Shown here: positions 46,152 through 57,469 of the stretch, in pieces
How the letters are laid out: each line of letters opens with the position of its first letter
Numbering within the stretch: the stretch's first letter is position 1
Made by a program: the position numbers and the translations under genes
Source of the DNA: an uncultured Idiomarina sp.
GTDB taxonomy: Bacteria > Pseudomonadota > Gammaproteobacteria > Enterobacterales > Alteromonadaceae
NCBI GenBank assembly: GCA_946885915.1
Contig: CAMPHF010000001.1
Location: forward strand, 248,001 to 312,000
Direction of reading: 5' to 3'
DNA: 64,000 nucleotides
The notes under the pieces: generated by a model
What the model was told of the DNA's origin: nothing
Databases searched by the model: none
What the model saw: the letters and a program-made list of their open reading frames with translations, nothing else

Positions 46152-46814
46152 TCAACGGAAAAATAGGCTGCTGAACGGGTTCAGCAAACGGCTAATTCCA
46201 GAGGTAAAGTGTAACGGCGCATCCAAGCAGGCCAAGGTTAGACAATCGTGGCTCTGAGTTTGCGGACTATGCACATGGTCATGATCGAGTAACATGAAAT
46301 CACCGTTGTGATAACTATCATGTTCGTCGTTGAAGATACCATTTAACACTAAAGTCGCTTCACTACCTTTATGGGTATGCTCTGGAACGTGAGCGCCTTC
46401 ATCCATATAGATAAGGTTCACGGAAGCGTCCTGGCACACTTGTAACGGCGCACGCCACAATTTGCCTACCATGTGCGTCCACGGACCGATGCGGTCATGG
46501 TTACGGGCTAGGGTAGGTGGTAATTGGAACCGCTTACCCTCTAAGCACAACATGGTTTCAGGCGGCACAATAATCGCTTGTTCAGCGGCATGTGACGCAA
46601 ATATAGCCTCTAACATCTGCTCCGCTTGCAGCATTTTTAGTGGTTCGTTAGAACCAAACTGCTTCTGGCAAAGATGCTCTTCAATATCTGTCACGTGATT
46701 CTGACAATGCGGACACATGTCCACGTGAGTTGCGACAACGAGTGACAGCGCTGGTGATAAATCACCGGCCACGAAGCGATACAAATAAGATTCTGAAGGA
46801 TGTGATTTAATCAT
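46152..46814 (-). CDS. chrR: ChrR-family zinc anti-sigma factor
   Basis: 220 residues. The N-terminal zinc anti-sigma domain has H5, H30, C34 and C37 (HVDMCPHC), matching the H-H-C-C ligand set of Rhodobacter ChrR. The C-terminal cupin has a second metal site (HVPEHTHKGSEAT, then HDHVHSP). ChrR holds its ECF sigma factor inactive until singlet oxygen or related stress triggers its degradation. The ATG at 46814 overlaps the sigma stop (ATGATTAA); an upstream TTG at 46823 is less likely. Both metal sites look intact. Confidence 0.93.
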   Translation of the reverse strand: MIKSHPSESYLYRFVAGDLSPALSLVVATHVDMCPHCQNHVTDIEEHLCQKQFGSNEPLKMLQAEQMLEAIFASHAAEQAIIVPPETMLCLEGKRFQLPPTLARNHDRIGPWTHMVGKLWRAPLQVCQDASVNLIYMDEGAHVPEHTHKGSEATLVLNGIFNDEHDSYHNGDFMLLDHDHVHSPQTQSHDCLTLACLDAPLHFTSGISRLLNPFSSLFFR

Positions 46815-47388
46815 GCGCAGCAATCAACTCTTTAAGTTTCTTTAAAGCCAAACGGGTACGGGACTTCACTGTTCCAAGTGGAATACCGAGGGAGTCCGAT
46901 ACTTCTTGCTGTGACTTACCTTCGATATAAATTTTTTCGACGACTTCGCGTTGCGCATCAGGTAACTGTGCGTAATACGCAGAAATCTCTTGCATCAGAA
47001 TTTGACCATCTAATGCATAGTCATCATCTAGGCTTTCATTAGTTTCGGCCAATACTGGCCAAAGTTCGTCAGCACTAATATCGTTCTGACGATGTTTGTT
47101 TTTGCGCAGAAAATCAAACCGAATATTACGCGCAATGGTAAATATCCAGGTTGAGGGAGAACCTTTATCTGCTTTGAATAGGTGTGCTTTGTGCCAAACG
47201 TTGGTCATGGTTTCTTGAACGAGATCCATGGCCGTCTGTTCGTTACCGAATTGGCGCGTCGCGTAAGCTTGCAGTTTGGGAGCAAAGTGATTGAAAAGCT
47301 CGGCAAAAGCCGTTCTACTTTTCGTAGCTGCAACCTGAGCAAGCAACTCAGCCGCATAATCAGCATTGTCCGGACGTTCACTGGTCAT
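46807..47388 (-). CDS. rpoE: ECF sigma factor, RpoE/ChrR type
   Basis: About 193 residues from the ATG at 47388 (SD GGAAAG), or 206 from the ATG at 47427. Region 2 has FAELFNHFAPKLQAYATRQF and DLVQETMTNVWHKAHLF...STWIFTIARNIRFDFLRK; region 4 has LPDAQREVVEKIYIEGKSQQEVSDSLGIPLGTVKSRTRLALKKL. Pairing and 8-bp overlap with chrR assign it to the ECF group controlled by ChrR (singlet oxygen response). This is not the E. coli envelope-stress RpoE. A matching promoter lies upstream at 47466-47494, so it is likely self-activated. Confidence 0.93.
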   Translation of the reverse strand: MTSERPDNADYAAELLAQVAATKSRTAFAELFNHFAPKLQAYATRQFGNEQTAMDLVQETMTNVWHKAHLFKADKGSPSTWIFTIARNIRFDFLRKNKHRQNDISADELWPVLAETNESLDDDYALDGQILMQEISAYYAQLPDAQREVVEKIYIEGKSQQEVSDSLGIPLGTVKSRTRLALKKLKELIAAHD

Positions 47389-47465
47389 AACTTTCCGTTG
47401 TGGTTCGTGAGCGGACGTTGTGAGCATAAGTGTATACCTGTTCCAAATTTCTACAAGTTATATTC

Positions 47466-47494
47466 GTTACGCACTTGGTTCACTCATTGGATCA
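47466..47494 (-). promoter_or_regulatory. Predicted ECF sigma-E/ChrR-type promoter
   Basis: On the minus strand TGATCC (-35) and CGTAAC (-10 region) are separated by 17 bp, 39 bp ahead of the first possible start of the sigma gene. TGATCC is the -35 element known for the ChrR-controlled sigma-E of Rhodobacter. This supports autoregulation. Confidence 0.65.
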
Positions 47495-47527: not shown

Positions 47528-48106
47528 CTACTGGATCAAGTTGCGAATGTAGTCACGCGCTTTCTTGCAGTCGCTCGGTTCCAACAATTTTTGTTTCATA
47601 GTTGGGTCGAGCGGCAAAATTTCAAGCCAACGCATGCATAACCAATCTACGCGGTTAATATCTTGCTGCGGACACAGCTCAACCAACTCCGGATATGCCT
47701 GATAAATTTCTTCAATACGATTCTTGAGGACGCAGTCTTCATCGGTAAGGCTGGCCGGCGGCCAGTCATCTAACGCTTCCACACTCGCCATCCGCAAGCC
47801 ATCATTTTCAATCTCGATGTGCTGAATGCGCATCCGCCGTTGACCAGCAACCGTAATACCTAGTAGCCCATCAGGTAGCGTTTCGAAATCTACAATTCTA
47901 GCCATGGTACCAATTGGCAAGATATGTGAATTATCTTCCTTATTGCCAAACGCATCGAGCATGCACATGCCGATGTCGCTGCCATGACGCATAGATTCCT
48001 TCACCATTCGAATGTAGCGCGGCTCAAAAATTCTCAGCTTCAGCTGGCCACCGGGCAATACATGAGAGGTGAGCGGAAACAAAGGAATACGTTTTACTTC
48101 TGACAT
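47528..48106 (-). CDS. LON N-terminal-like substrate-binding domain protein
   Basis: About 192 residues. It has the LON-domain pattern RIPLFPLTSHVLPGGQLKLRIFEPRY at the N-terminus and HILPIGTMARIVDFE near residue 63, but no AAA+ or protease domain. Stand-alone LON-domain proteins are conserved in gammaproteobacteria with unknown function. The frame starts at 48121, but ATG 48106 gives MSEVKRIPLFPL. A weak sigma-E-like promoter (AGATCC-N16-CGTAG) lies upstream. It is next to the ChrR locus, sharing its regulatory neighbourhood. Confidence 0.88.
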   Translation of the reverse strand: MSEVKRIPLFPLTSHVLPGGQLKLRIFEPRYIRMVKESMRHGSDIGMCMLDAFGNKEDNSHILPIGTMARIVDFETLPDGLLGITVAGQRRMRIQHIEIENDGLRMASVEALDDWPPASLTDEDCVLKNRIEEIYQAYPELVELCPQQDINRVDWLCMRWLEILPLDPTMKQKLLEPSDCKKARDYIRNLIQ

Positions 48107-48314
48107 AAACCATACGTCCACAAGTTAATTTGACTGATTTATGAACAACTACGAGTCTGGGCAAAGGGCGGATCTCAATCGGGATACAAATACCTGCAAA
48201 AATTTTGCGGTTTTATTCGTATTTTCTCAAAATTGTAAATCTATCAGCGGCAGCCGTGCGTAATCAGTGCATACTTGTTGCGCAATAAAACAATAAAAGC
48301 AAGCGCCTAAGGGG

Positions 48315-49106
48315 ATGAAACAACAAGTCATGTTGAATCAGTTGAAAGTTGGTATTAGCGCCTGTTTGCTGGGCGATAACGTGCGCTATGACGGTGGTCA
48401 TAAAGGCGCTACTTTTTGCCAAGATGAACTAAGTCGCCACGTACAATTCGTAAAATTATGTCCTGAAGTCGGCATAGGTATGTCGGTTCCGCGGCCTACT
48501 ATTCGGTTACAAACAACCGATAGTGATGCGGAGGCACAGGCGATTGTGTCGACCACTGGCGCTAATGTGACAACCCAGCTGCAAGCCTTTGCCGACCGTT
48601 CGCACCCGCAATTGCAAACAATTAGTGGTTATGTGCTGTGCGCCAAGTCACCCAGTTGTGGTTTGGAATCTGTCAAAGTATACGACACCAATGCCGACCA
48701 AGTTGCTAAAACGGGTACGGGCATCTTCGCAGCCCGGCTGCGCGAACGTTACCCAGCTCTCCCGTTGGAAGAGAATGTGCGCTTGCAAGATCCTCTTCTG
48801 CGCGAAAATTTTATTGAGCGGGTATACGTATATGGTGCTTGGCAAGCGCTAACCGATACCAGCCAGCGAGTGCCGACGCAACCACAGTTGCTAGAATTCC
48901 ACGAGCGAATGAGGTTGTTAGCGACACACTCGCAAGCTGAGTATCAAGCACTAGGCGCATGGCTTGCACAACAAGTACAGATCGATAAGGGACAAGCAAC
49001 CCATTACATCGAGCAGCTCATGGCCGTACTCAGTAAGCCGGTAAGCAGGGCGGACCACAGCGAAGTGTTACAACACATAAAAGGTTACTTTAACCAAGAT
49101 AATTAG
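48315..49106 (+). CDS. DUF523-DUF1722 protein (YbgA-type)
   Basis: 263 residues. The N-terminal DUF523 domain (about 8-150) has GISACLLGDNVRYDGGHK, KLCPEVGIGMSVPRPTIRL and KSPSCGLESVKVY, with conserved Cys residues (at about 13, 53 and 118). The C-terminal DUF1722 (about 155-260) has FHERMRLLATHSQAEYQALG. Such proteins often neighbour photolyase genes; the DUF523 cysteines are thought to suggest metal or iron-sulfur binding, not proven. The start may be 48315 or 48330. It opens the plus-strand photolyase cluster. Confidence 0.88.
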   Translation: MKQQVMLNQLKVGISACLLGDNVRYDGGHKGATFCQDELSRHVQFVKLCPEVGIGMSVPRPTIRLQTTDSDAEAQAIVSTTGANVTTQLQAFADRSHPQLQTISGYVLCAKSPSCGLESVKVYDTNADQVAKTGTGIFAARLRERYPALPLEENVRLQDPLLRENFIERVYVYGAWQALTDTSQRVPTQPQLLEFHERMRLLATHSQAEYQALGAWLAQQVQIDKGQATHYIEQLMAVLSKPVSRADHSEVLQHIKGYFNQDN

Positions 49107-49201
49107 CCTTATATCCAAGTGCTTTGCGCTTGAGTTACGGTCGCTAAAGTAACGGCTTAGGCAGGATTTTGAACAGCATTAAATAGGAAAGGGCAGTGAA
49201 C

Positions 49202-50641
49202 ATGACGGTAGAGGCAATTTGGTTTCGTGGCGATTTGCGGCGCCAGGATAATCCGGCGGTAGCCAAGGCTGTTAAAGCGCAGATGACGAACACTGAACGA
49301 TCAGTACCCGCGATATCAGTACCCGCGATATTTTTTGCCACACCAGAAACTTGGCAGGCCCACGCATGGGCGCCGCTTAAGATTGACTTGTTGTGGCGCC
49401 ATCTGGCCGATTTTCAGGCCGATTGTGCTGAGCATGGTATTGCGTTGAGTGTGGTTGTGGTCGACAGTTATGCAGATATACCTGCAGCGTTGGCTGATTG
49501 GTGTGCAGCGCAACAAGTGTCGACGTTACATTTTAATTATGAGTATCCACTCGATGAGGCGAAGCGAGATAAGGCTTGTCTTGCTGCACTTGAACAAGCG
49601 CAGGTCGCGACTAAGGCTTATCACGGTCTCTTGCTAGCTCCACCACAGCGCATTCAAACCCAGCAGGGCGGCTACTATAAAATGTTTACCCCGTTTAATC
49701 GTGCTTGGCGCCAATATCTCCAACAGAACTATCGCTGGCAGCCCCACCAACTGACCTGGCCTCCAGCGTGTGAATCGCCAGCGCTGCCCGATTGTCCGCT
49801 CCCGCGTCGTGACAGTAGCGAATGGCCGGTTGGCGAAGCAGCGGTGCTGCAACGGCTGCGCGATTATATTGATAGCAACGTGGCACATTACGCCGATGAG
49901 CGCGATTTGCCGGCACTTGATAGTACCTCGCGCTTGTCCCCGTATTGGGAGCTTGGCGTGTTGTCACCCTACACCGCGGCGCGCTTATTGAGCGAACAAA
50001 GCCCCGATTTCCCCCACGGGTTGAATAAAGGTGCTGACATTTGGCTCACTGAACTTGCCTGGCGCGAATTCTATCAACACCTGATGTTTCATGAGCCGAG
50101 ATTATGCACAGGCCAAGCTTTTCAGCGCTATACTGACAAGTTCCCATGGCGTGACAGTGAAGCCGATTTTAAACGCTGGTGTGAGGGGCAAACAGGCTAT
50201 CCGATTGTCGATGCGGGAATGCGACAATTAAAAGCTGAGGGTTTCATGCACAATCGACTCCGCATGATTGTGGCCAATTTTTTGGTCAAAGACTTGCGCA
50301 TTGACTGGCGTAAAGGTGAAACCTTTTTTATGCAAAATTTAATCGATGGAAGCTTTCCTGCGAACAACGGAGGTTGGCAGTGGAGCGCCTCGACCGGTAC
50401 CGACGCGGTGCCTTATTTTCGGGTATTTAATCCGACCCGGCAGAGTGAAAAAGTTGATCCCGAGGGTGAGTACATTCGTACTTGGGTGAACGAACTGAAA
50501 GGCGTGCCGACCAAGCATATTCATGCGCCGCACAAATGGCTGGCAGAACATGACTCGGCGTCGCAGTACCCCGCACCTATTGTTGACCATGGGGAAGCGC
50601 GGCAAGACTTTCTTGACACTTTTAAAGGACTGACTCAATGA
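49202..50641 (+). CDS. phrB: Deoxyribodipyrimidine photolyase (class I CPD)
   Basis: About 479 residues. Light-driven repair of cyclobutane pyrimidine dimers. The antenna domain starts at AIWFRGDLRRQDNPA; the FAD domain has ELAWREFYQHL near residue 285, CEGQTGYPIVDAGMRQL and the C-terminal NNGGWQWSASTGTDAVPYFRVFNPTRQSEK. Trp residues of the electron-transfer chain appear present. GTG at 49196 and ATG at 49202 are both possible; ATG is preferred. A perfect 15-bp tandem duplication (49301-49330) adds SVPAI twice in the antenna domain. Confidence 0.96.
   Translation: MTVEAIWFRGDLRRQDNPAVAKAVKAQMTNTERSVPAISVPAIFFATPETWQAHAWAPLKIDLLWRHLADFQADCAEHGIALSVVVVDSYADIPAALADWCAAQQVSTLHFNYEYPLDEAKRDKACLAALEQAQVATKAYHGLLLAPPQRIQTQQGGYYKMFTPFNRAWRQYLQQNYRWQPHQLTWPPACESPALPDCPLPRRDSSEWPVGEAAVLQRLRDYIDSNVAHYADERDLPALDSTSRLSPYWELGVLSPYTAARLLSEQSPDFPHGLNKGADIWLTELAWREFYQHLMFHEPRLCTGQAFQRYTDKFPWRDSEADFKRWCEGQTGYPIVDAGMRQLKAEGFMHNRLRMIVANFLVKDLRIDWRKGETFFMQNLIDGSFPANNGGWQWSASTGTDAVPYFRVFNPTRQSEKVDPEGEYIRTWVNELKGVPTKHIHAPHKWLAEHDSASQYPAPIVDHGEARQDFLDTFKGLTQ
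49301..49330 (+). repeat. 15-bp perfect tandem duplication inside phrB
   Basis: TCAGTACCCGCGATA occurs twice in direct succession, in frame, giving SVPAISVPAI near residues 35-44. Compared with E. coli PhrB, this part of the antenna domain is longer, so it looks like a recent slippage insertion. Confidence 0.9.
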
Positions 50642-50674
50642 CCTTGAGTCTCGTCATGACCGGCGGAGCAACAA

Positions 50675-51124
50675 ATGGCAGAGCATGACAAAGATATTGA
50701 AGCTTTAATTGAACGCATCAAGCAATTTTACGATGAATTCTCGGTCGATAAGCTCGATGGCCTAGACGCTATTTACACCGATGATGTTGGGTTCACCGAC
50801 CCAATCCATCAAGTAACTGGCTTAACCAAACTTCGCGAATATTTTCGTGGGGTCATGGAAAATGTCGAACACTGTCACTTTGCGTTTACCGAGCAAGCAT
50901 GCACTGGAGAATGGCTCTTCTTAGCATGGCAGATGAGATTTGCGCACCCAAAACTCGCAAATGGCCGGGAAATCGTGATGCCAGGCGTTAGTCAATTCCA
51001 TTTGCATGAGGGCAAAGTGCGAACTCAGCAAGATCATTATGACATGGGCGCGATGCTCTATGAGCATGTTCCGGTGCTTGGCTTCGTGGTGAATAAAATT
51101 AAACAACGGTTGGCAAACTCATGA
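50675..51124 (+). CDS. SnoaL-like (NTF2-fold) protein
   Basis: 149 residues of the nuclear-transport-factor-2 fold: an N-terminal helix (DIEALIERIKQFYDEFS), the strand YTDDVGFTDPIHQVTG and later beta strands (MPGVSQFHLHEGKVRTQQDHYDMGAM). Family members are cyclases, isomerases or non-enzymatic binding proteins. SD GGCGGAG precedes the ATG. Its stop overlaps the next start by 4 bp (ATGA). The role is unknown; its setting is the photolyase/fatty-acid cluster. Confidence 0.82.
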   Translation: MAEHDKDIEALIERIKQFYDEFSVDKLDGLDAIYTDDVGFTDPIHQVTGLTKLREYFRGVMENVEHCHFAFTEQACTGEWLFLAWQMRFAHPKLANGREIVMPGVSQFHLHEGKVRTQQDHYDMGAMLYEHVPVLGFVVNKIKQRLANS

Positions 51125-51846
51125 ATATACTCATCACTGGTGCCACCTCAGGGATAGGCAAACAAGTTGCACTCAATTACTTAGCGCAAGGCCATCGAGT
51201 ATTTGTTTGCGGCCGTAACCAAGAAGCGTTGGCGAAAATCGAGGCGGATTATCCACAAACAGCCACTACGGTTGCGGTTGATGTGAGTGAGTTAGACAGT
51301 GTTAACGAGGCGTTTGCGCCGTTACCTGACCTAGACATCGTGATTCTAAACGCCGGCGTGTGCGAATATCTCGACATTAATAAGTTTGAAGCAAAGCTAT
51401 TTGAGCGGGTGTTCAAAGTTAATGTCATGGGCACCATGAATTGCGTCGAAGCATTATTGCCTAAGTTAGGGTCCGGTAGTCGGTTAGTGATTGTCGGCAG
51501 TACGGCACGCTTATTACCCTTTACCCGAGCTCAGGCGTATGGCGGCTCGAAAGCTGCGTTGCAATACATCGCCCGTAGTTTAGAAGTGGATCTGGCACCG
51601 CGTGGCGTGCGGGTGATTACGGTATCTCCCGGCTTCGTAGAAACCCCGATGACTGACGCGAATGATTTCGATATGCCGATGCAAGTGAGTGTCGAATTCG
51701 CGGCAGACGCGATTATTAACGGCATCCGTAAAGAGAAAACGGATGTTGCATTCCCCACCTTGTTTAGTTGGTTTTTAAAGCTGCTCTCGCGGCTCCCACA
51801 AGCATGGCAAGTGGCTATTTCTAAGCGATTAAAATCAAAACAATAG
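51121..51846 (+). CDS. SDR-family oxidoreductase of the ChrR cluster
   Basis: 241 residues. TGATSGIGKQVA near residue 6 binds the cofactor; NAGVCEY and YGGSKAALQYIARS near residue 140 supply the structural Asn and catalytic Tyr-x3-Lys. The Arg in VCGRNQEAL suggests NADP(H). The C-terminal segment (FSWFLKLLSRLPQAWQVAISKRL) is amphipathic, possibly membrane-associated. It overlaps the SnoaL-like gene by 4 bp and lies 9 bp before the amine oxidase gene. Confidence 0.9.
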   Translation: MNILITGATSGIGKQVALNYLAQGHRVFVCGRNQEALAKIEADYPQTATTVAVDVSELDSVNEAFAPLPDLDIVILNAGVCEYLDINKFEAKLFERVFKVNVMGTMNCVEALLPKLGSGSRLVIVGSTARLLPFTRAQAYGGSKAALQYIARSLEVDLAPRGVRVITVSPGFVETPMTDANDFDMPMQVSVEFAADAIINGIRKEKTDVAFPTLFSWFLKLLSRLPQAWQVAISKRLKSKQ

Positions 51847-51855
51847 GAAGTTTGC

Positions 51856-53121
51856 ATGAAAATTGCGGTTGTCGGTAGCGGCATTTCGGGGCTGGCTGCA
51901 GCGCACTTGCTGAGCGCGAAACATGAAGTAAAAGTATTTGAAAAAAATGATTATATTGGTGGCCACACGGCGACCGTAGAGGTTGAGTTAGCGGGTAAAC
52001 AGTACGCCATTGATACTGGTTTTATTGTGTTCAATGATAAAACCTACCCGTTATTCCGCCGCTTAATGCGTGAGTTACAGGTGCCTTGGCGGGATACCGA
52101 AATGAGTTTTAGTGTGATGGATAAGGCGCAACGGCTAGAGTACAACGGCCACAACCTGAATACCTTATTTGCGCAACGACGGAATTTGTTCAAACCAAGC
52201 TTTTGGCGCTTGATCCGCGGCATTTTAACCTTTAATCGCGAGGCGAAGGCAGCGCTGGCTCGCGGTGAAGATCTTGATAACGTCACTTTGGGTGAGTTTC
52301 TGCAGCGACATCAATTACCCCAAGCAGTTATTGAGCAATACTTGCTGCCCATGGTTGCGGCGATTTGGTCGGCCAGTTTAGCTGAAGCTGAAGGGTTCCC
52401 ATTAGGCTTTTTCTTAAGGTTTTTCGAGAATCATGGCTTGTTAAATGTCGCCGACCGGCCGCAATGGGCGACTATTGTGGGTGGTTCTAAACAATACATT
52501 CCGGCGCTTACGGCTCGCTTTGCCGATAAAATTGAACTCAATACCACTTTGCAAGCGGTCACGCGAAAAGGTGAGGGGCAAGGCGTTGAATTACAATTTT
52601 CCGATGGCAGTGTGCAACATTTTGATGAAGTTATTCTGGCGTGCCATAGCGATCAGGCGCTGGAGTTGTTAACCGATGCAAGTGCGGACGAGCGAGCGGT
52701 GTTAGGCGCCATCCCTTATCAAAATAATGAAGTGGTACTGCATACGGATATCAATTTACTACCGCGCGCGCGTCTGGCGTGGGCAAGCTGGAACTATTTG
52801 TTACACACAGGTGCTGAGGCCCGGACTCGTCCCAGTTCAGTTACCTACAACATGAATATACTGCAGGGTATTGATGCCCCAGAAACCTTTTGTGTCACGC
52901 TTAATAATACCCAAGCTATCGCTCCAGATAAAATTCTGCGGCAATTTAACTATGCACACCCCGTGTATAGCGTAGAATCATTACAGGCTCGGCAACAGCG
53001 TGCACTCATCTGTGGTAAGCAACATACCCATTTTGCCGGCGCATACTGGTATAACGGCTTCCACGAAGATGGTTTACGCAGTGCGGTTGATGTCGCTGAG
53101 CGGCTAGGTGCAGCATGGTAA
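51856..53121 (+). CDS. FAD-dependent amine-oxidase-like protein
   Basis: 421 residues. The Rossmann dinucleotide motif VVGSGISGLAAAHLL begins at residue 4 and is followed by FEKNDYIGGHT, the usual flavin-amine-oxidase/desaturase pattern. The C-terminal end has FAGAYWYNGFHEDGLRSAVDVAERLG, the second FAD-binding signature. In Rhodobacter, related flavoproteins linked to a Cfa-type methyltransferase act in furan fatty-acid synthesis (UfaD); a similar role here is inference from context. SD GGAAG precedes the ATG. Confidence 0.88.
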   Translation: MKIAVVGSGISGLAAAHLLSAKHEVKVFEKNDYIGGHTATVEVELAGKQYAIDTGFIVFNDKTYPLFRRLMRELQVPWRDTEMSFSVMDKAQRLEYNGHNLNTLFAQRRNLFKPSFWRLIRGILTFNREAKAALARGEDLDNVTLGEFLQRHQLPQAVIEQYLLPMVAAIWSASLAEAEGFPLGFFLRFFENHGLLNVADRPQWATIVGGSKQYIPALTARFADKIELNTTLQAVTRKGEGQGVELQFSDGSVQHFDEVILACHSDQALELLTDASADERAVLGAIPYQNNEVVLHTDINLLPRARLAWASWNYLLHTGAEARTRPSSVTYNMNILQGIDAPETFCVTLNNTQAIAPDKILRQFNYAHPVYSVESLQARQQRALICGKQHTHFAGAYWYNGFHEDGLRSAVDVAERLGAAW

Positions 53122-53236
53122 GACGCCAGCTGACCTGAGCTCAACACGCAAATTGCGTAATAAATACTATGGTGGGTAGCGCAAATGAGCAGGGAAATTA
53201 ACGTTTGGCAAGTTCTTATGAGTGGCAAAAACTAGC

Positions 53237-54043
53237 ATGATCAGCAAAGTGTTATGGTCGCAAATCACGCATCAACGGTTTCGGCCAACCCAGCATCGCT
53301 TTGGTTACGATGTCGCGCAGTTTTGGCTAGCGCTTGATGAGATACCCACCATTGCCGCGTCAACTCGGCTATTTGCCTATCGTGCTAGCCAAGCTCACAA
53401 GCGCAGCTTTGCGCCACTGTGTTTTGACGAACGGCGGTTAGTGCCTGAAAGTATTGCGACAACGCCAGATTTATCTCAACGAGTGCTGAATAAATTGACC
53501 GAGCTGACCGGTACTAAAGTTACTGGGCGAGTGTTCTTTATGGGCAATCTCACGACCTTCGGTGCCTATTTCAGTCCCCTTAATTGCTATTTCGTGCAAT
53601 CGCATCCACACCAAGCTGAATGCAGTTATATGTTAGCGGAAGTGAGTAACACGCCGTGGCTGGAGCATCATTATTATGCGGTTCCGATGGCGGGGCTTCA
53701 ACTTCGGCAAGAGCATGAAAAGGCTTTTCATGTGTCGCCATTTAATCCGCTAGCAATGCGCTACAAGTGGCGAGTGCAATTACCTGAACAACTGTTTAGC
53801 AATGAAGCACTGGAAGCCGCTCAACCAGCTAGCGGCGTGATGCGCTTAGAGGCTTGGCAAGAGCACAAAGATTTCATGGCGAATGTGGAATTTAGCGCAG
53901 CGATGTTAAACCCAAAAATGCTTCGCCGCGTATTATGGAAATATCCGATACTAACGGTGCGGATTCTGCGCGGTATTTATTGGCAAGCGCTAAAATTGTG
54001 GTTCAAACGAACGCCGCTTTACACGCACCCTAAACAACGTTAA
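53237..54043 (+). CDS. DUF1365-family protein
   Basis: 268 residues from ATG 53237 (or 273 from GTG 53222). It starts with VLWSQITHQRFRPTQHRFGYDVAQFWLALDEIP, matching the DUF1365 beginning (HRRFxPxxHxFxY), and contains FFMGNLTTFGAYFSPLNCYF. DUF1365 proteins are almost always beside a FAD amine oxidase and a Cfa-like methyltransferase, as here. Function unknown. No ribosome site is strong at either start. Confidence 0.85.
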   Translation: MISKVLWSQITHQRFRPTQHRFGYDVAQFWLALDEIPTIAASTRLFAYRASQAHKRSFAPLCFDERRLVPESIATTPDLSQRVLNKLTELTGTKVTGRVFFMGNLTTFGAYFSPLNCYFVQSHPHQAECSYMLAEVSNTPWLEHHYYAVPMAGLQLRQEHEKAFHVSPFNPLAMRYKWRVQLPEQLFSNEALEAAQPASGVMRLEAWQEHKDFMANVEFSAAMLNPKMLRRVLWKYPILTVRILRGIYWQALKLWFKRTPLYTHPKQR

Positions 54044-54103
54044 ACGCATAAATGAACCAATTTCTGACGTATAAGTTCAAATGATTCTACAAGGAATGAC
54101 AGC

Positions 54104-55384
54104 ATGGCAAATGGTGAAACGGTGATGACCATGACAACCCAAATGGGGTGGGCTGACCGGCAAGCTCGGCGCGTATTATTGGCGCTGTTGAGTAAATTGC
54201 AATTTGGGCGCTTAACCCTGCTGGAGCACGGCAGTTTAGTGGCTACTTTTGGTGAAGCAGACCAAGACACCGATTTGCATGCCGAAGTAAATGTACTGCA
54301 TCCGAGTTTCTATCGGCGCATGCTATTCGGTGGCAGTATCGCCTCGGGCGAGTTATACGTCGACAACCATTGGGAAACCCCTGATTTAACGACCGTTATT
54401 CGTGTGTTTGCCCGTAACTTGCCGGCTCTAGATGCATTTGAAGCTAAATTCACTTGGTTGACCTTGCCGCTGCAAAAGTTCCAACATTGGCGTCGTAGCA
54501 ATACCAAAGTACGGGCGAAAGAAAATATATCAGCCCACTACGATTTGGGTAATCAGTTATATAAATCCTTTTTAGATCAGCGCTTACAGTATTCAAGTGC
54601 GGTTTATCCAAGTCCTGATGCCTCGTTGGAAGAAGCGCAAACCTATAAATTGAAACGCTTGTGCGACGCACTGGATTTGCAGCCGACGGATCATTTAGTT
54701 GAAATTGGCACGGGTTGGGGCGGGTTAGCGCTCTATGCTGCGCAGCATTATGGTTGTCAGGTAACCACCACCACCATTTCGGAAGAGCAATATAGTTACA
54801 CCCAAGAACTGGTCGCAGCTCATGGTTTGCAGGACAAAATCACCCTGTTGAAGCAAGACTATCGGGATTTGACGGGGCAATACGATAAATTGGTGTCGGT
54901 TGAGATGATTGAGGCGGTGGGTGAGAAGTTTATGCCTGCTTTTTTCAGTAAGTGCAGTGAGTTACTCAAGCCAAACGGGATCATGGCGTTACAAGCCATT
55001 ACCATCGCCGACCAGCGCCTACGTAGTTACGCTGATGGTGTCGACTTTATTCAAAAGCACATTTTCCCTGGTGGTTTTTTACCATCCATTCAGTTAATGA
55101 GCGACATGTTTACCCGCCATACCAATATGGTGATGCGCGCGGTGTCAGACATCGGTCTAGATTACGCGAATACACTGCAAGATTGGTTCGAGCGCTTTAA
55201 TCGACAAACCAAGTCATTACAAGCATACGGCTATGATGACCGGTTTGCGCGGTTGTGGAACTATTATTTATGTTATTGCGAAGGTGGTTTTCGTGAACGC
55301 ACTATCTCGGCGGTGCAATTAGTTGCGACGAAACCGAGTTGTCGGGCACCACTAAAAGGATTTGCCAATTGCGCGAAGGATTAG
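54104..55384 (+). CDS. Cfa-type fatty-acyl methyltransferase
   Basis: 426 residues. A 130-residue N-terminal lipid-binding region (FGRLTLLEHGSLVATFGE) precedes the SAM domain with EIGTGWGGLALYAAQHYGC near residue 200 and VSVEMIEAVGEKFMPAFFSKC, the CFA-synthase signature. It should methylate or cyclopropanate unsaturated membrane fatty acids. In Rhodobacter, a ChrR-linked Cfa-like enzyme (RSP1091) influences ChrR turnover; a parallel is possible. SD AAGGA lies 8 nt before the ATG. It overlaps the next gene by 16 bp. Confidence 0.93.
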   Translation: MANGETVMTMTTQMGWADRQARRVLLALLSKLQFGRLTLLEHGSLVATFGEADQDTDLHAEVNVLHPSFYRRMLFGGSIASGELYVDNHWETPDLTTVIRVFARNLPALDAFEAKFTWLTLPLQKFQHWRRSNTKVRAKENISAHYDLGNQLYKSFLDQRLQYSSAVYPSPDASLEEAQTYKLKRLCDALDLQPTDHLVEIGTGWGGLALYAAQHYGCQVTTTTISEEQYSYTQELVAAHGLQDKITLLKQDYRDLTGQYDKLVSVEMIEAVGEKFMPAFFSKCSELLKPNGIMALQAITIADQRLRSYADGVDFIQKHIFPGGFLPSIQLMSDMFTRHTNMVMRAVSDIGLDYANTLQDWFERFNRQTKSLQAYGYDDRFARLWNYYLCYCEGGFRERTISAVQLVATKPSCRAPLKGFANCAKD

Positions 55385-55890
55385 TAGCACAAATTAAACG
55401 AATTGCCGGCTTCCTGCTATTCGATCTGGTGTGGTTCGCCGCAGTTATTGGGCGCGAAGATTGGATATGGGTGACGCTGGTGTTGGTGCTCGGGCAACTT
55501 GCGCTCACTTGGAGCTGTGGCCGCTGGCATCCGCGGCTTATCGTGCAGTTAGCGCTTGGCGGTTTATTACTAGAAGCTATCTTGGCCACCATGGGACTGA
55601 TTGACTTTAGTGGTGATGCACTGCTGCCATTGTGGTTGGTGTTGTTGTGGTTAGGCTTTGCGGGCATGGCATTAACCGCGTTGGATTGGTTACAACACAA
55701 AGTTGCGGTAGCTGCGTTGATTGGATTTTTTGGTGGGCCTATTAGTTATGTGATTGGCGCCGGTGTTGATGCCGCCACTGCACCACAGGGCCTATGGTTA
55801 ATGAGTCTTGGTTATGCGGTTGCGTATGCTATTTATATGGCCTGGTTTGCGGTCATGGTCAAGCGCCAGTCAGGGTCCGCAACATCATAG
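55369..55890 (+). CDS. DUF2878-family membrane protein, TTG start
   Basis: About 173 residues with five to six predicted membrane segments (VWFAAVIG, WIWVTLVLVLGQLALTW, LIVQLALGGLLLEAILATMG, LWLVLLWLGFAGMALTAL and later). It fits DUF2878, always seen beside ChrR-linked fatty-acid genes to my knowledge. The chosen start is TTG at 55369 with AGGA 8 nt upstream; a longer frame begins at 55339. It overlaps the methyltransferase gene by 16 bp, so the two are translationally coupled. Function unknown. Confidence 0.8.
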   Translation: MREGLVAQIKRIAGFLLFDLVWFAAVIGREDWIWVTLVLVLGQLALTWSCGRWHPRLIVQLALGGLLLEAILATMGLIDFSGDALLPLWLVLLWLGFAGMALTALDWLQHKVAVAALIGFFGGPISYVIGAGVDAATAPQGLWLMSLGYAVAYAIYMAWFAVMVKRQSGSATS

Positions 55891-55928
55891 TGGGCTGGTG
55901 CAAGTAGACTGAGTAGGTGGAGACTGTG

Positions 55929-56504
55929 ATGAAAATATTATCGAAGCACTACTGCATGGGGTTGTTGTTGGGCAGCAGCCTTACCCTGCTGAGTGGCCCA
56001 GCAGCCAGCATGGCGATAAGTGACGGCAGCATGGGCGCTGCTAGCTGTGGTGCCGAGGTTACAGAAACCTTGGAAACCGTTGGTAGCACTCGCTTGAGCG
56101 TGATGTTCTGGGATGTTTATGATGCCACCTTGTTTAGTGACAGCGGTGCTTATGAAAGCGCTGAGCAGCTCGCCTTACGGTTAGAATATTTACGTGATAT
56201 TGATGCTGCAGACTTGGTGGAAACCACCGGTGAAGAGTGGGAAAAGCTCGATTACCAGATGGATGAGCAGGCGCAACAGTGGCTGCAACAACTAAACGAG
56301 ATGTGGCCAGATGTGCAAGAGGGCGACTGTATCACTTTGGTCGTGAATGCTGCTGGTGAATCTACCTTTTACGGTATCAACGGCCGGCTTGGCGAAATTA
56401 CCGATGCCGCGTTTAGCGAACGTTTTCTTGCCATTTGGTTATCTGCAAAAAGTCGTTTTGAAGACGAACGTAATGAGCTCATTGGCTCTGGAGGCAACGA
56501 ATAA
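55929..56504 (+). CDS. Periplasmic chalcone-isomerase-like protein
   Basis: 191 residues with a signal peptide (MKILSKHYCMGLLLGSSLTLLSG, cleavage near SMA). The mature protein has VGSTRLSVMFWDVYDATLFSDSGAY, the pattern of the bacterial chalcone-isomerase-like family, in which fatty-acid binding is known for plant and bacterial homologues. The frame opens with GTG at 55917; the ATG at 55929, with GGAG 6 nt upstream, is preferred. Its stop overlaps the following ATG (TAATG). Confidence 0.82.
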   Translation: MKILSKHYCMGLLLGSSLTLLSGPAASMAISDGSMGAASCGAEVTETLETVGSTRLSVMFWDVYDATLFSDSGAYESAEQLALRLEYLRDIDAADLVETTGEEWEKLDYQMDEQAQQWLQQLNEMWPDVQEGDCITLVVNAAGESTFYGINGRLGEITDAAFSERFLAIWLSAKSRFEDERNELIGSGGNE

Positions 56505-57061
56505 TGGTCGCTTTTTTTCGTAAGTTAAATGGCAGTGCAGTCGCCAAATTTTGGCTAGTGTTGGCTACTGTGGTTGGGATCAGTGGTTGTAGCGCGGCTA
56601 TCGAAGATTATCAAAATGATACGCCAAAATTAGCGTTAGAAACCTTCTTTAATGGCGATTTAGTTGCTTATGGCACCGTGCAAGATTACTCAGGGAAGGT
56701 CATTCAGCGCTTTCGAGCCGACATCGTTGGTACTTGGGATGGCAACTCGGGCGTGCTAGATGAGGTTTTTTATTATGCCGATGGGACGACCGATACGCGG
56801 GTTTGGAACCTCACCAAAACGGGCCCTAACAGTTATGAAGGAACGGCTGGTGATGTTGAAGGCGTTGCCAAGGGTACAACTGCCGGTAATGCGCTGCATT
56901 GGGTCTATGATCTCACGATTGAAATGGACGGCGAGCCATTGACCATCACCCTTGATGACTGGATGTATTTAATCGACGAAAACAATATGATTAATCGCAC
57001 CACCATGTATAAGTTTGGCTTGCCGGTCGGCGAAATCACCCTGTATATTGGTAAGCGTTAA
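56504..57061 (+). CDS. DUF3833-family lipoprotein
   Basis: 185 residues with signal peptide and lipobox ISGCSA (Cys near residue 29). The mature part is beta-rich, ending FGLPVGEITLYIGKR, like a lipocalin-type barrel that could bind a fatty acyl chain. DUF3833 is uncharacterised. It is the last gene of the cluster and starts inside the stop of the preceding gene. A nested palindrome follows at 57079-57119. Confidence 0.85.
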   Translation: MVAFFRKLNGSAVAKFWLVLATVVGISGCSAAIEDYQNDTPKLALETFFNGDLVAYGTVQDYSGKVIQRFRADIVGTWDGNSGVLDEVFYYADGTTDTRVWNLTKTGPNSYEGTAGDVEGVAKGTTAGNALHWVYDLTIEMDGEPLTITLDDWMYLIDENNMINRTTMYKFGLPVGEITLYIGKR

Positions 57062-57187: not shown

Positions 57188-57442
57188 ATGGCAGTGCATG
57201 GACCGACCTTTTCGTATAATAATCCGCGAATTCAGGGTCAAACCGTGTTTGTAAAACGGGGTAAACATCAAGGCAAGTTAGGCTTAGTCGTGAAATCCGA
57301 CGGGGACATATTTACCGTATCTCAGGGTGATTTTGGGACTGACAAAATAGAATTCCGGCGGGAAGAGTTTTTGGTGCATCGATATCGAAAAATTAAAGTG
57401 CCGATTGATCGCGCTGCTGGGAAAAATCCCGACATGATATAA
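57188..57442 (+). CDS. Small KOW-like protein
   Basis: 84 residues (88 from GTG 57176). A KOW-type segment, GQTVFVKRGKHQGKLGLVVKSDGDIFTV, is followed by a basic C-terminus. KOW folds bind RNA or ribosomal partners (NusG, L24, L26); no specific family is recognised. A terminator follows immediately, shared with the converging histone-H1-like gene. Confidence 0.7.
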   Translation: MAVHGPTFSYNNPRIQGQTVFVKRGKHQGKLGLVVKSDGDIFTVSQGDFGTDKIEFRREEFLVHRYRKIKVPIDRAAGKNPDMI

Positions 57443-57469
57443 AAAAACCAGGCTTCGGCCTGGTTTTTT
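57442..57469. terminator. Bidirectional rho-independent terminator
   Basis: A6, CCAGGC, TTCG loop, GCCTGG, T6 form a symmetric terminator between the KOW-like gene and the histone-H1-like gene. Confidence 0.93.

Follow-up and report, generated by a model that had tools for sequence, protein, structure and literature searches.

Why should a DNA photolyase gene stand in one run with genes for fatty acid modification and for several small proteins of obscure family, immediately beside the sigma factor/anti-sigma factor pair RpoE-ChrR? This question is raised by positions 48315-57061 of the DNA considered here (the window), a stretch of 64,000 nucleotides from an uncultured Idiomarina sp. (GenBank assembly GCA_946885915.1, contig CAMPHF010000001.1, positions 248,001 to 312,000 of the forward strand). 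In our judgment the run of ten genes is quite probably a gammaproteobacterial operon for light or singlet-oxygen stress that is built around the furan fatty acid pathway. The operon type is already known, and the pathway idea is in print for relatives of the gene set. New in this analysis are the recognition of gene 6 as a UfaO-type gene, a signature that distinguishes UfaM from Cfa, the modular structure of the cluster, the tie of DUF3833 and of divergent chalcone isomerase-like (CHI-like) proteins to UfaO, and the scarcity of ChrR among genomes with UfaO. In the available text of the open-access literature searched, these five additions were not found.

The features are listed below by their coordinates in the window.

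48315..49106, plus strand: gene 1, TudS/DUF523 (2-thiouracil desulfurase-like) plus DUF1722 (Pfam 2.2e-40 and 8.3e-11)
49196..50641, plus strand: gene 2, deoxyribodipyrimidine photolyase, PhrB (Pfam 9.9e-83; NCBIfam NF007955 514.9 bits, cut-off 506)
50675..51124, plus strand: gene 3, SnoaL/NTF2-like protein (Pfam SnoaL_2 3e-18)
51121..51846, plus strand: gene 4, SDR of the same family type as RSP1087 (Pfam adh_short 1.8e-42; TGxxxGxG and YxxxK motifs)
51856..53121, plus strand: gene 5, UfaD-like FAD-dependent methyl-acyl desaturase (Pfam Amino_oxidase 2.4e-24; GxGxxG at residue 7)
53222..54043, plus strand: gene 6, UfaO-like DUF1365 protein, putatively for O2-dependent furan ring formation (Pfam PF07103 1.4e-56; predicted model with a pLDDT of 91)
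54104..55384, plus strand: gene 7, UfaM-like SAM-dependent acyl methyltransferase of the Cfa superfamily (Pfam CMAS 3.8e-82)
55339..55890, plus strand: gene 8, DUF2878 integral membrane protein (Pfam 1.3e-26; six hydrophobic stretches; start uncertain)
55917..56504, plus strand: gene 9, divergent Chalcone_3 protein (CHI-like, PF16036), probably secreted (Pfam 5.5e-11, 43.3 bits against a gathering score of 27)
56504..57061, plus strand: gene 10, DUF3833 lipoprotein, predicted beta barrel (Pfam 5.7e-65; lipobox ISGC followed by S)
47528..48121, minus strand: gene for a LON-domain protein, the counterpart of SO_1987
46807..47427, minus strand: rpoE, extracytoplasmic function (ECF) sigma factor of the RpoE-ChrR pair (NCBIfam sigma-70 ECF families)
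46152..46823, minus strand: chrR, zinc anti-sigma factor (TIGR02451 184 bits, cut-off 124.5; HVDMCPHC and HTHKGSE motifs)
47466..47494, minus strand: sigma-E type promoter of rpoE, TGATC-N18-CGTA (exact match)
48148..48175, minus strand: candidate sigma-E type promoter of the LON gene, AGATC-N17-CGTA (one mismatch)

The ten open reading frames run head to tail on the plus strand, all of their families exceed the Pfam gathering scores, and the intergenic gaps are short or negative with a maximum of 100 bp. The reading frames overlap at the SnoaL/SDR, Cfa/DUF2878, and Chalcone_3/DUF3833 junctions. The genes for the LON-domain protein, RpoE, and ChrR adjoin gene 1 on the opposite strand (48121-46152). 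A first-pass annotation had described a ten-gene set beside ChrR, and all of its open reading frames and named families are confirmed, although only nine of the genes were named, the omitted one being gene 1. A further reading frame of ∼84 codons, noted by eye, follows the operon at 57189-57443, before the next gene called.

The probable furan fatty acid genes and their conservation

As can be seen from the list, genes of the UfaD, UfaO, and UfaM types lie side by side. The three enzymatic steps have been shown by published work in other species. According to the available text of PMC7380195, on Rhodobacter sphaeroides and Rhodopseudomonas palustris, UfaM methylates the cis-vaccenoyl chains of phospholipids, UfaD desaturates the UfaM product, and UfaO, a DUF1365 protein, accounts for the O2-dependent step that yields the furan acid. 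In Halomonas, ufaD, ufaO, and ufaM are consecutive, and the Halomonas UfaM expressed in Escherichia coli gives an 11-methyl product (PMC12089945, as far as its text is available). Gene 5 agrees with the description of UfaD in that it encodes an FAD/NAD-binding protein with a GxGxxG motif and adjoins UfaO. By analogy the key oxygen-inserting gene is that of the DUF1365 protein, gene 6, which had been listed in the first-pass annotation but not identified as such. The link drawn there to ChrR/sigma-E and to furan fatty acids is likewise supported, and had already been published for relatives of the gene set.

On the basis of this kinship we infer that the organism makes the acid, and the events can be envisioned as follows. 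Singlet oxygen or light stress would free the ECF sigma factor from ChrR. The product of gene 7, UfaM, would then methylate cis-vaccenoyl phospholipid chains to the 11-methyl-12-ene, which UfaD (gene 5) would convert to the conjugated methyl-diene. With O2, UfaO (gene 6) would form the furan ring, a group that would be readily destroyed by singlet oxygen, while the photolyase would provide for DNA repair in parallel.

How well this gene set is conserved was addressed with 80 loci found via an alignment of DUF1365 relatives. The related stretches from named species genomes number at least 578, of which the best 80 were taken by similarity to the UfaO of the window, a selection that is uninformative on the frequency of a solitary UfaO; their genes were called with profiles seeded from the window proteins. 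UfaO-like and UfaM-like genes are present in all 80 and a UfaD-like gene in 79, the sole locus without it (L001) beginning 43 bases before the UfaO match. The counts for the accessory genes are SDR 75, SnoaL 71, CHI-like 52, DUF3833 49, DUF2878 43, photolyase 40, and TudS 38, and those for the regulatory side are ChrR 71, RpoE 69, and LON 68. Co-conservation, which had been proposed as a check on the cluster, thus holds strongly for genes 5-7 and in part for the others.

In 29 of these 80 loci all 13 genes keep the order and orientation of the window, chrR-rpoE-LON / T-P-S-R-D-O-M-m-c-l (T, TudS; P, photolyase; S, SnoaL; R, SDR; D, UfaD; O, UfaO; M, UfaM; m, DUF2878; c, CHI-like; l, DUF3833). 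Of the 29, 28 bear the name Idiomarina, Pseudidiomarina, or Aliidiomarina in their titles, and the remaining one is a gammaproteobacterial metagenome-assembled genome. Such a shared arrangement is far beyond chance. Eight Shewanella loci and one from Salinivibrio display T, a gap of ∼1 kb, and then P-S-R-D-O-M-m-c-l, with no rpoE within reach; in two of these nine there is a weaker ChrR-like match ∼2.2 kb upstream. A further 18 loci titled Alteromonas contain S-R-D-O-M only, without genes 8-10. The closest named relatives of the window UfaO belong to the Idiomarinaceae (∼44-52% identity), and one further protein is 83% identical.

Several of the published systems resemble the window, each with differences of its own; the comparisons that follow are limited to the available text of the papers cited. 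In Shewanella oneidensis the operon SO_3386-SO_3374 likewise has ybgA first with phrB and cfa inside, and the LON gene SO_1987 lies beside rpoE2. The operon belongs to the RpoE2-ChrR regulon and has an RpoE2-dependent promoter, TGATCC...CGTAAT (PMC4336711). Whereas everything in the window is adjacent, rpoE2-chrR-LON is elsewhere in S. oneidensis as judged by locus numbers, and genes 1 and 2 are separated by ∼1 kb; the window, for its part, has no consensus promoter before gene 1. The types UfaD, UfaO, and UfaM are shared with R. sphaeroides (ufaM, RSP2144; RSP1091-1087) and R. palustris (RPA2569-2571) (PMC7380195). The R. sphaeroides operon also contains an SDR and a 186-residue protein, probably DUF3833, and is under ChrR/sigma-E control. 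It differs in that ufaM lies apart from the operon and that RSP1089, with 402 residues, is too long for DUF2878 or a CHI-like protein; no gene of either kind is mentioned in the published descriptions of that operon (PMC7380195).

Among the pseudomonads, phrB, SDR, FAD oxidase, and cfa/UfaM genes occur together in Pseudomonas syringae (PSPTO_1121-1116), where a homologue of RSP1090 (UfaO) is named, and in a region of Pseudomonas mendocina (PMC5507510, PMC9758184). The latter differs in being light-regulated via LitR-type proteins. Counterparts of genes 8-10 are not named in the published text for these loci, which contain unnamed hypothetical genes. In Aeromonas salmonicida six genes, NTF2-SDR-FAD-DUF1365-cfa-DUF2878, are arranged as in the window (PMC10012899), although ChrR and LON are at distant locus numbers. 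An Aeromonas plasmid copy (L084) continues, like the window, with CHI-like and DUF3833 genes. It differs by a MerR gene between genes 1 and 2 and by a small gene before the CHI-like one, that of a TIGR02450 Trp-rich protein located between DUF2878 and CHI-like (L084 9476-9694).

Promoters and the occurrence of ChrR

The rpoE-chrR pair of the window is of the ECF11 type, and its ChrR scores above the family cut-off and contains the zinc and cupin motifs (HxxxCxxC and HxHxxxE). The promoter published for Vibrio cholerae reads TGATC-N18-CGTAT (PMC5241685), and a Shewanella example reads TGATCC...CGTAAT (PMC4336711), both as given in the available text. TGATC and CGTA, both exact and at a spacing of 16-18, are found in 36 of 70 rpoE upstream regions as compared to 32 of 3200 random windows; with up to one mismatch the random background rises to 260 of 3200. 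Of 69 regions upstream of LON, 62 match with a single mismatch at most, none of them exactly, and AGATC-N17-CGTA is the commonest form. For the first genes of 79 operons, the window included, 58 have a match with no more than one mismatch and six have an exact one, all six in Shewanella. General sigma-70 and terminator scans gave no signal above the shuffle level.

Upstream of gene 3 an exact TGATC-N17-CGTA is present in 30 of 41 loci, including the window (50455-50482), where it lies inside the photolyase coding sequence. The examples checked coincide with the photolyase peptide DPEGEYIR, and the match was treated as a coding coincidence. It is probably a by-product of the conserved peptide, but it may instead be an internal promoter for genes 3-10. 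Given the position of the ten genes and their kinship to published operons, control by ChrR is likely.

The wider occurrence of ChrR was assessed in 274 gammaproteobacterial genomes drawn evenly across the class, 78 of which encode a DUF1365 protein. ChrR above the TIGR02451 cut-off, which the ChrR of the window passes as a control, is present in 10 of the 274 genomes. All 10 have UfaO (p 2.3e-6; this and the other co-occurrence p values treat the genomes as independent, though they are related). Hits under the cut-off (71 of the 81 genomes with a match) were discounted, most of them spanning only part of the model. Since 68 of the 78 UfaO genomes have no ChrR above the cut-off, ChrR turnover is not the general purpose of the cluster. 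In this sample ChrR accompanies UfaO, and UfaO does not require ChrR.

The accessory proteins

For 77 of the 78 UfaO genomes the 9 kb around UfaO were inspected, the neighbourhoods being selected by UfaO alone and several contigs being cut. The 78th genome (G001, identical to L080) is within the 274-genome tallies and outside these 77. The counts do not include the plasmid loci (L081-L089) or L090-L099, which are genomes refetched as L100-L109. Within 9 kb of UfaO there is UfaD in 75 neighbourhoods, UfaM in 72, SDR in 36, DUF3833 in 30, DUF2878 in 27, SnoaL in 26, CHI-like in 24, photolyase in 16, RpoE in 10, ChrR in nine, TudS in seven, and LON in one; SDR and SnoaL are common families, and the counts stand without a background rate. 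Despite widely varied gene order, sub-modules persist. Of 26 SnoaL copies, 21 have an SDR gene within 300 bp; CHI-like adjoins DUF3833 in 13 of 24 copies, and DUF2878 adjoins a methyltransferase in 24 of 27.

The tie of the accessory families to UfaO extends to whole genomes. DUF3833 occurs in 42 of the 274 genomes, 38 of them with UfaO (p 2.6e-20), and DUF2878 in 46, 34 of them with UfaO (p 1.6e-12). Chalcone_3 is present in 87 genomes, some of which carry both a strong and a divergent form. As a whole the family could not be tied to UfaO, the strong matches being unassociated (51 genomes, 15 with UfaO, p 0.5), whereas the divergent group, in whose range gene 9 of the window scores, is found in 44 genomes, 40 of them with UfaO (p 9e-22); note that the dividing values (E <= 1e-40 versus > 1e-34) were chosen after the scores were viewed. 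Matches within 9 kb of UfaO number 31 of 42 for DUF3833, 28 of 46 for divergent CHI, and 28 of 47 for DUF2878. Eleven of the 42 DUF3833 copies and 18 of the 46 divergent CHI copies thus lie beyond this distance or on a separate contig.

Two observations weigh against an operon built around the furan acid. Upstream of gene 1 in the window there is no match to the sigma-E promoter at up to one mismatch. In addition, single deletions of RSP1087 (the SDR), RSP1088 (probably DUF3833), and RSP1089 in R. sphaeroides left furan acid synthesis unchanged (PMC7380195, available text). Only three of the ten genes, therefore, are known to be required for the acid, and the fatty acid pathway first proposed for the entire set stands for the UfaD, UfaO, and UfaM types rather than for all ten.

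These observations bear on two other explanations. According to the first, nothing but regulation is shared: a light-stress regulon has been gathered into one operon, and genes 1, 3, 4, 8, 9, and 10 lie outside furan fatty acid biology. By family, genes 1 and 2 and LON are indeed not lipid genes, RSP1087-1089 are dispensable, photolyase and ChrR are found in only 16 and nine of the 77 neighbourhoods, respectively, and in Aeromonas a response to riboflavin is described for six genes of one such operon (PMC10012899, in its available text). DUF3833 and divergent CHI, however, are nearly confined to UfaO genomes, even where they are distant from UfaO, and are found in diverse gene orders where ChrR is absent, such that co-regulation by ChrR alone is an insufficient explanation. 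We regard shared regulation by itself as unlikely. The second explanation places genes 8-10 and SnoaL-SDR within synthesis, the gammaproteobacterial product being a furan acid with additional modification or else another oxygenated acid. It is doubtful, given that the SDR and the probable DUF3833 protein of R. sphaeroides are dispensable for the known product (PMC7380195, same text) and that the 18 Alteromonas loci retain S-R-D-O-M without genes 8-10.

If the operon is instead centered on the furan acid, as we favor, the SnoaL-SDR and CHI-like/DUF3833 pairs are probably unneeded for its synthesis and would most likely act later, on the furan acid or its oxidised products, which they would bind, move, or process. 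For genes 3, 4, 8, 9, and 10 we infer the following from fold, motifs, and neighbours. The DUF3833 lipobox is followed by serine at position +2 in 41 of 50 copies, and the predicted model is a barrel (pLDDT 93.6) with structural matches of the nitrobindin/FABP kind. It is plausible from this model that DUF3833 is a ligand-binding barrel of that kind, and likewise plausible that it handles the furan product; it would be an outer-membrane lipoprotein. Of 53 copies of the CHI-like protein, 47 have a hydrophobic stretch at the N terminus. The last three proteins had been suggested to serve as carriers, and for two of them the barrel model with its lipobox and the CHI-like/DUF3833 pairing favor the idea. 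DUF2878 looks more like a partner of the methyltransferase step than a carrier because of its position next to a methyltransferase in nearly all copies, and it probably aids that enzyme at the inner membrane. In the available text of the open-access literature searched, no molecular function is assigned to DUF3833 or DUF2878, and searches for furan acid with chalcone isomerase, dioxoene, or lipoprotein gave nothing relevant among the matches listed.

The methyltransferase and a possible wider use of the cluster

The Cfa superfamily includes both UfaM and the cyclopropane synthases, and the identity of gene 7 accordingly requires comment. The gene could be read as an ordinary cyclopropane fatty acid synthase, with a cluster that hardens membranes by cyclopropanation and a photolyase as a second protection. 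It matches Pfam CMAS, its best NCBIfam model is the E. coli-type Cfa, and in V. cholerae the homologue VC1122, for which induction by blue light is described, is referred to as a putative CFA synthase (PMC5241685, available text). The NCBIfam score, however, is 278 bits, which is below the cut-off of 400.

Six positions were compared that we take to be those of the E. coli Cfa active site. Residues S165, E270, A271, Q297, I299, and Y354 of gene 7 align to E. coli Cfa 139, 239, 240, 266, 268, and 317, where the E. coli enzyme has C, E, H, H, I, and Y. Residues His 240 and His 266 of E. coli Cfa are thus alanine and glutamine in gene 7. Position 139 is non-diagnostic, with Ser, Ala, and Cys all seen in UfaO-adjacent copies. 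For positions 239-240-266 the combination E-A-Q is found in 79 of 80 fetched relatives of gene 7, the remaining one having gaps there. In the class sample (adjacency meaning within 400 bp, and proteins of fewer than 250 residues being omitted here and for the plasmids), 65 of 69 UfaO-adjacent copies have E-A-Q, the misfits being one E-A-H, two E-S-Q, and one with unknown residues. By contrast, of the 12 non-adjacent copies 10 have E-H-H, as in E. coli Cfa, and two have E-A-Q. On plasmids, E-A-Q is present in six of eight UfaO-adjacent copies, and the remaining two are the frames of a single split gene; of three non-adjacent copies one has E-A-Q. The combination E-A-Q also holds for all 120 relatives listed for a Rhodobacteraceae copy, that of Cereibacter changlensis among them, which are candidate UfaM proteins.

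In CmaA1, His 167 is a strictly conserved ligand of bicarbonate, and the bicarbonate site is essential for ring formation (PMC9821293, available text). On our reading, position 266 of E. coli Cfa corresponds to this residue. Note that in the Halomonas study cyclic acids were found in the ufaM strain and the cfa strain alike (PMC12089945, available text). The sequence of gene 7 favors UfaM over Cfa, gene 7 probably does not encode a cyclopropane synthase, and a cluster devoted to cyclopropanation is very improbable. The E-A-Q signature provides a simple means to separate the UfaM type from Cfa in databases, whose entries of the former type frequently bear the name of cyclopropane synthase.

Nine plasmid records were examined, of 73 and 220 with a match. 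UfaO clusters are present on records of Shinella, Aeromonas, Acinetobacter, Azospirillum, and Plesiomonas (L081, L084, L086, L087, and L088, respectively), and the Shinella and Acinetobacter plasmids are typed as mobilizable. Next to the UfaO cluster on each of the latter two is a Cfa-like gene of the E-H-H type beside a DUF1295 gene (L081 3595-5444 and L086 8160-9997).

Most of the gammaproteobacterial UfaO genomes sampled are without ChrR, which suggests a use for the lipid beyond ChrR signalling. The real puzzle of the cluster is the small extra proteins that travel with the furan genes. The locus brings together the three genes assigned to the furan fatty acid pathway, the sensor pair, and five partners of unexplained role, and is a compact test bed for the fate of the furan acid and for the proteins that use it.

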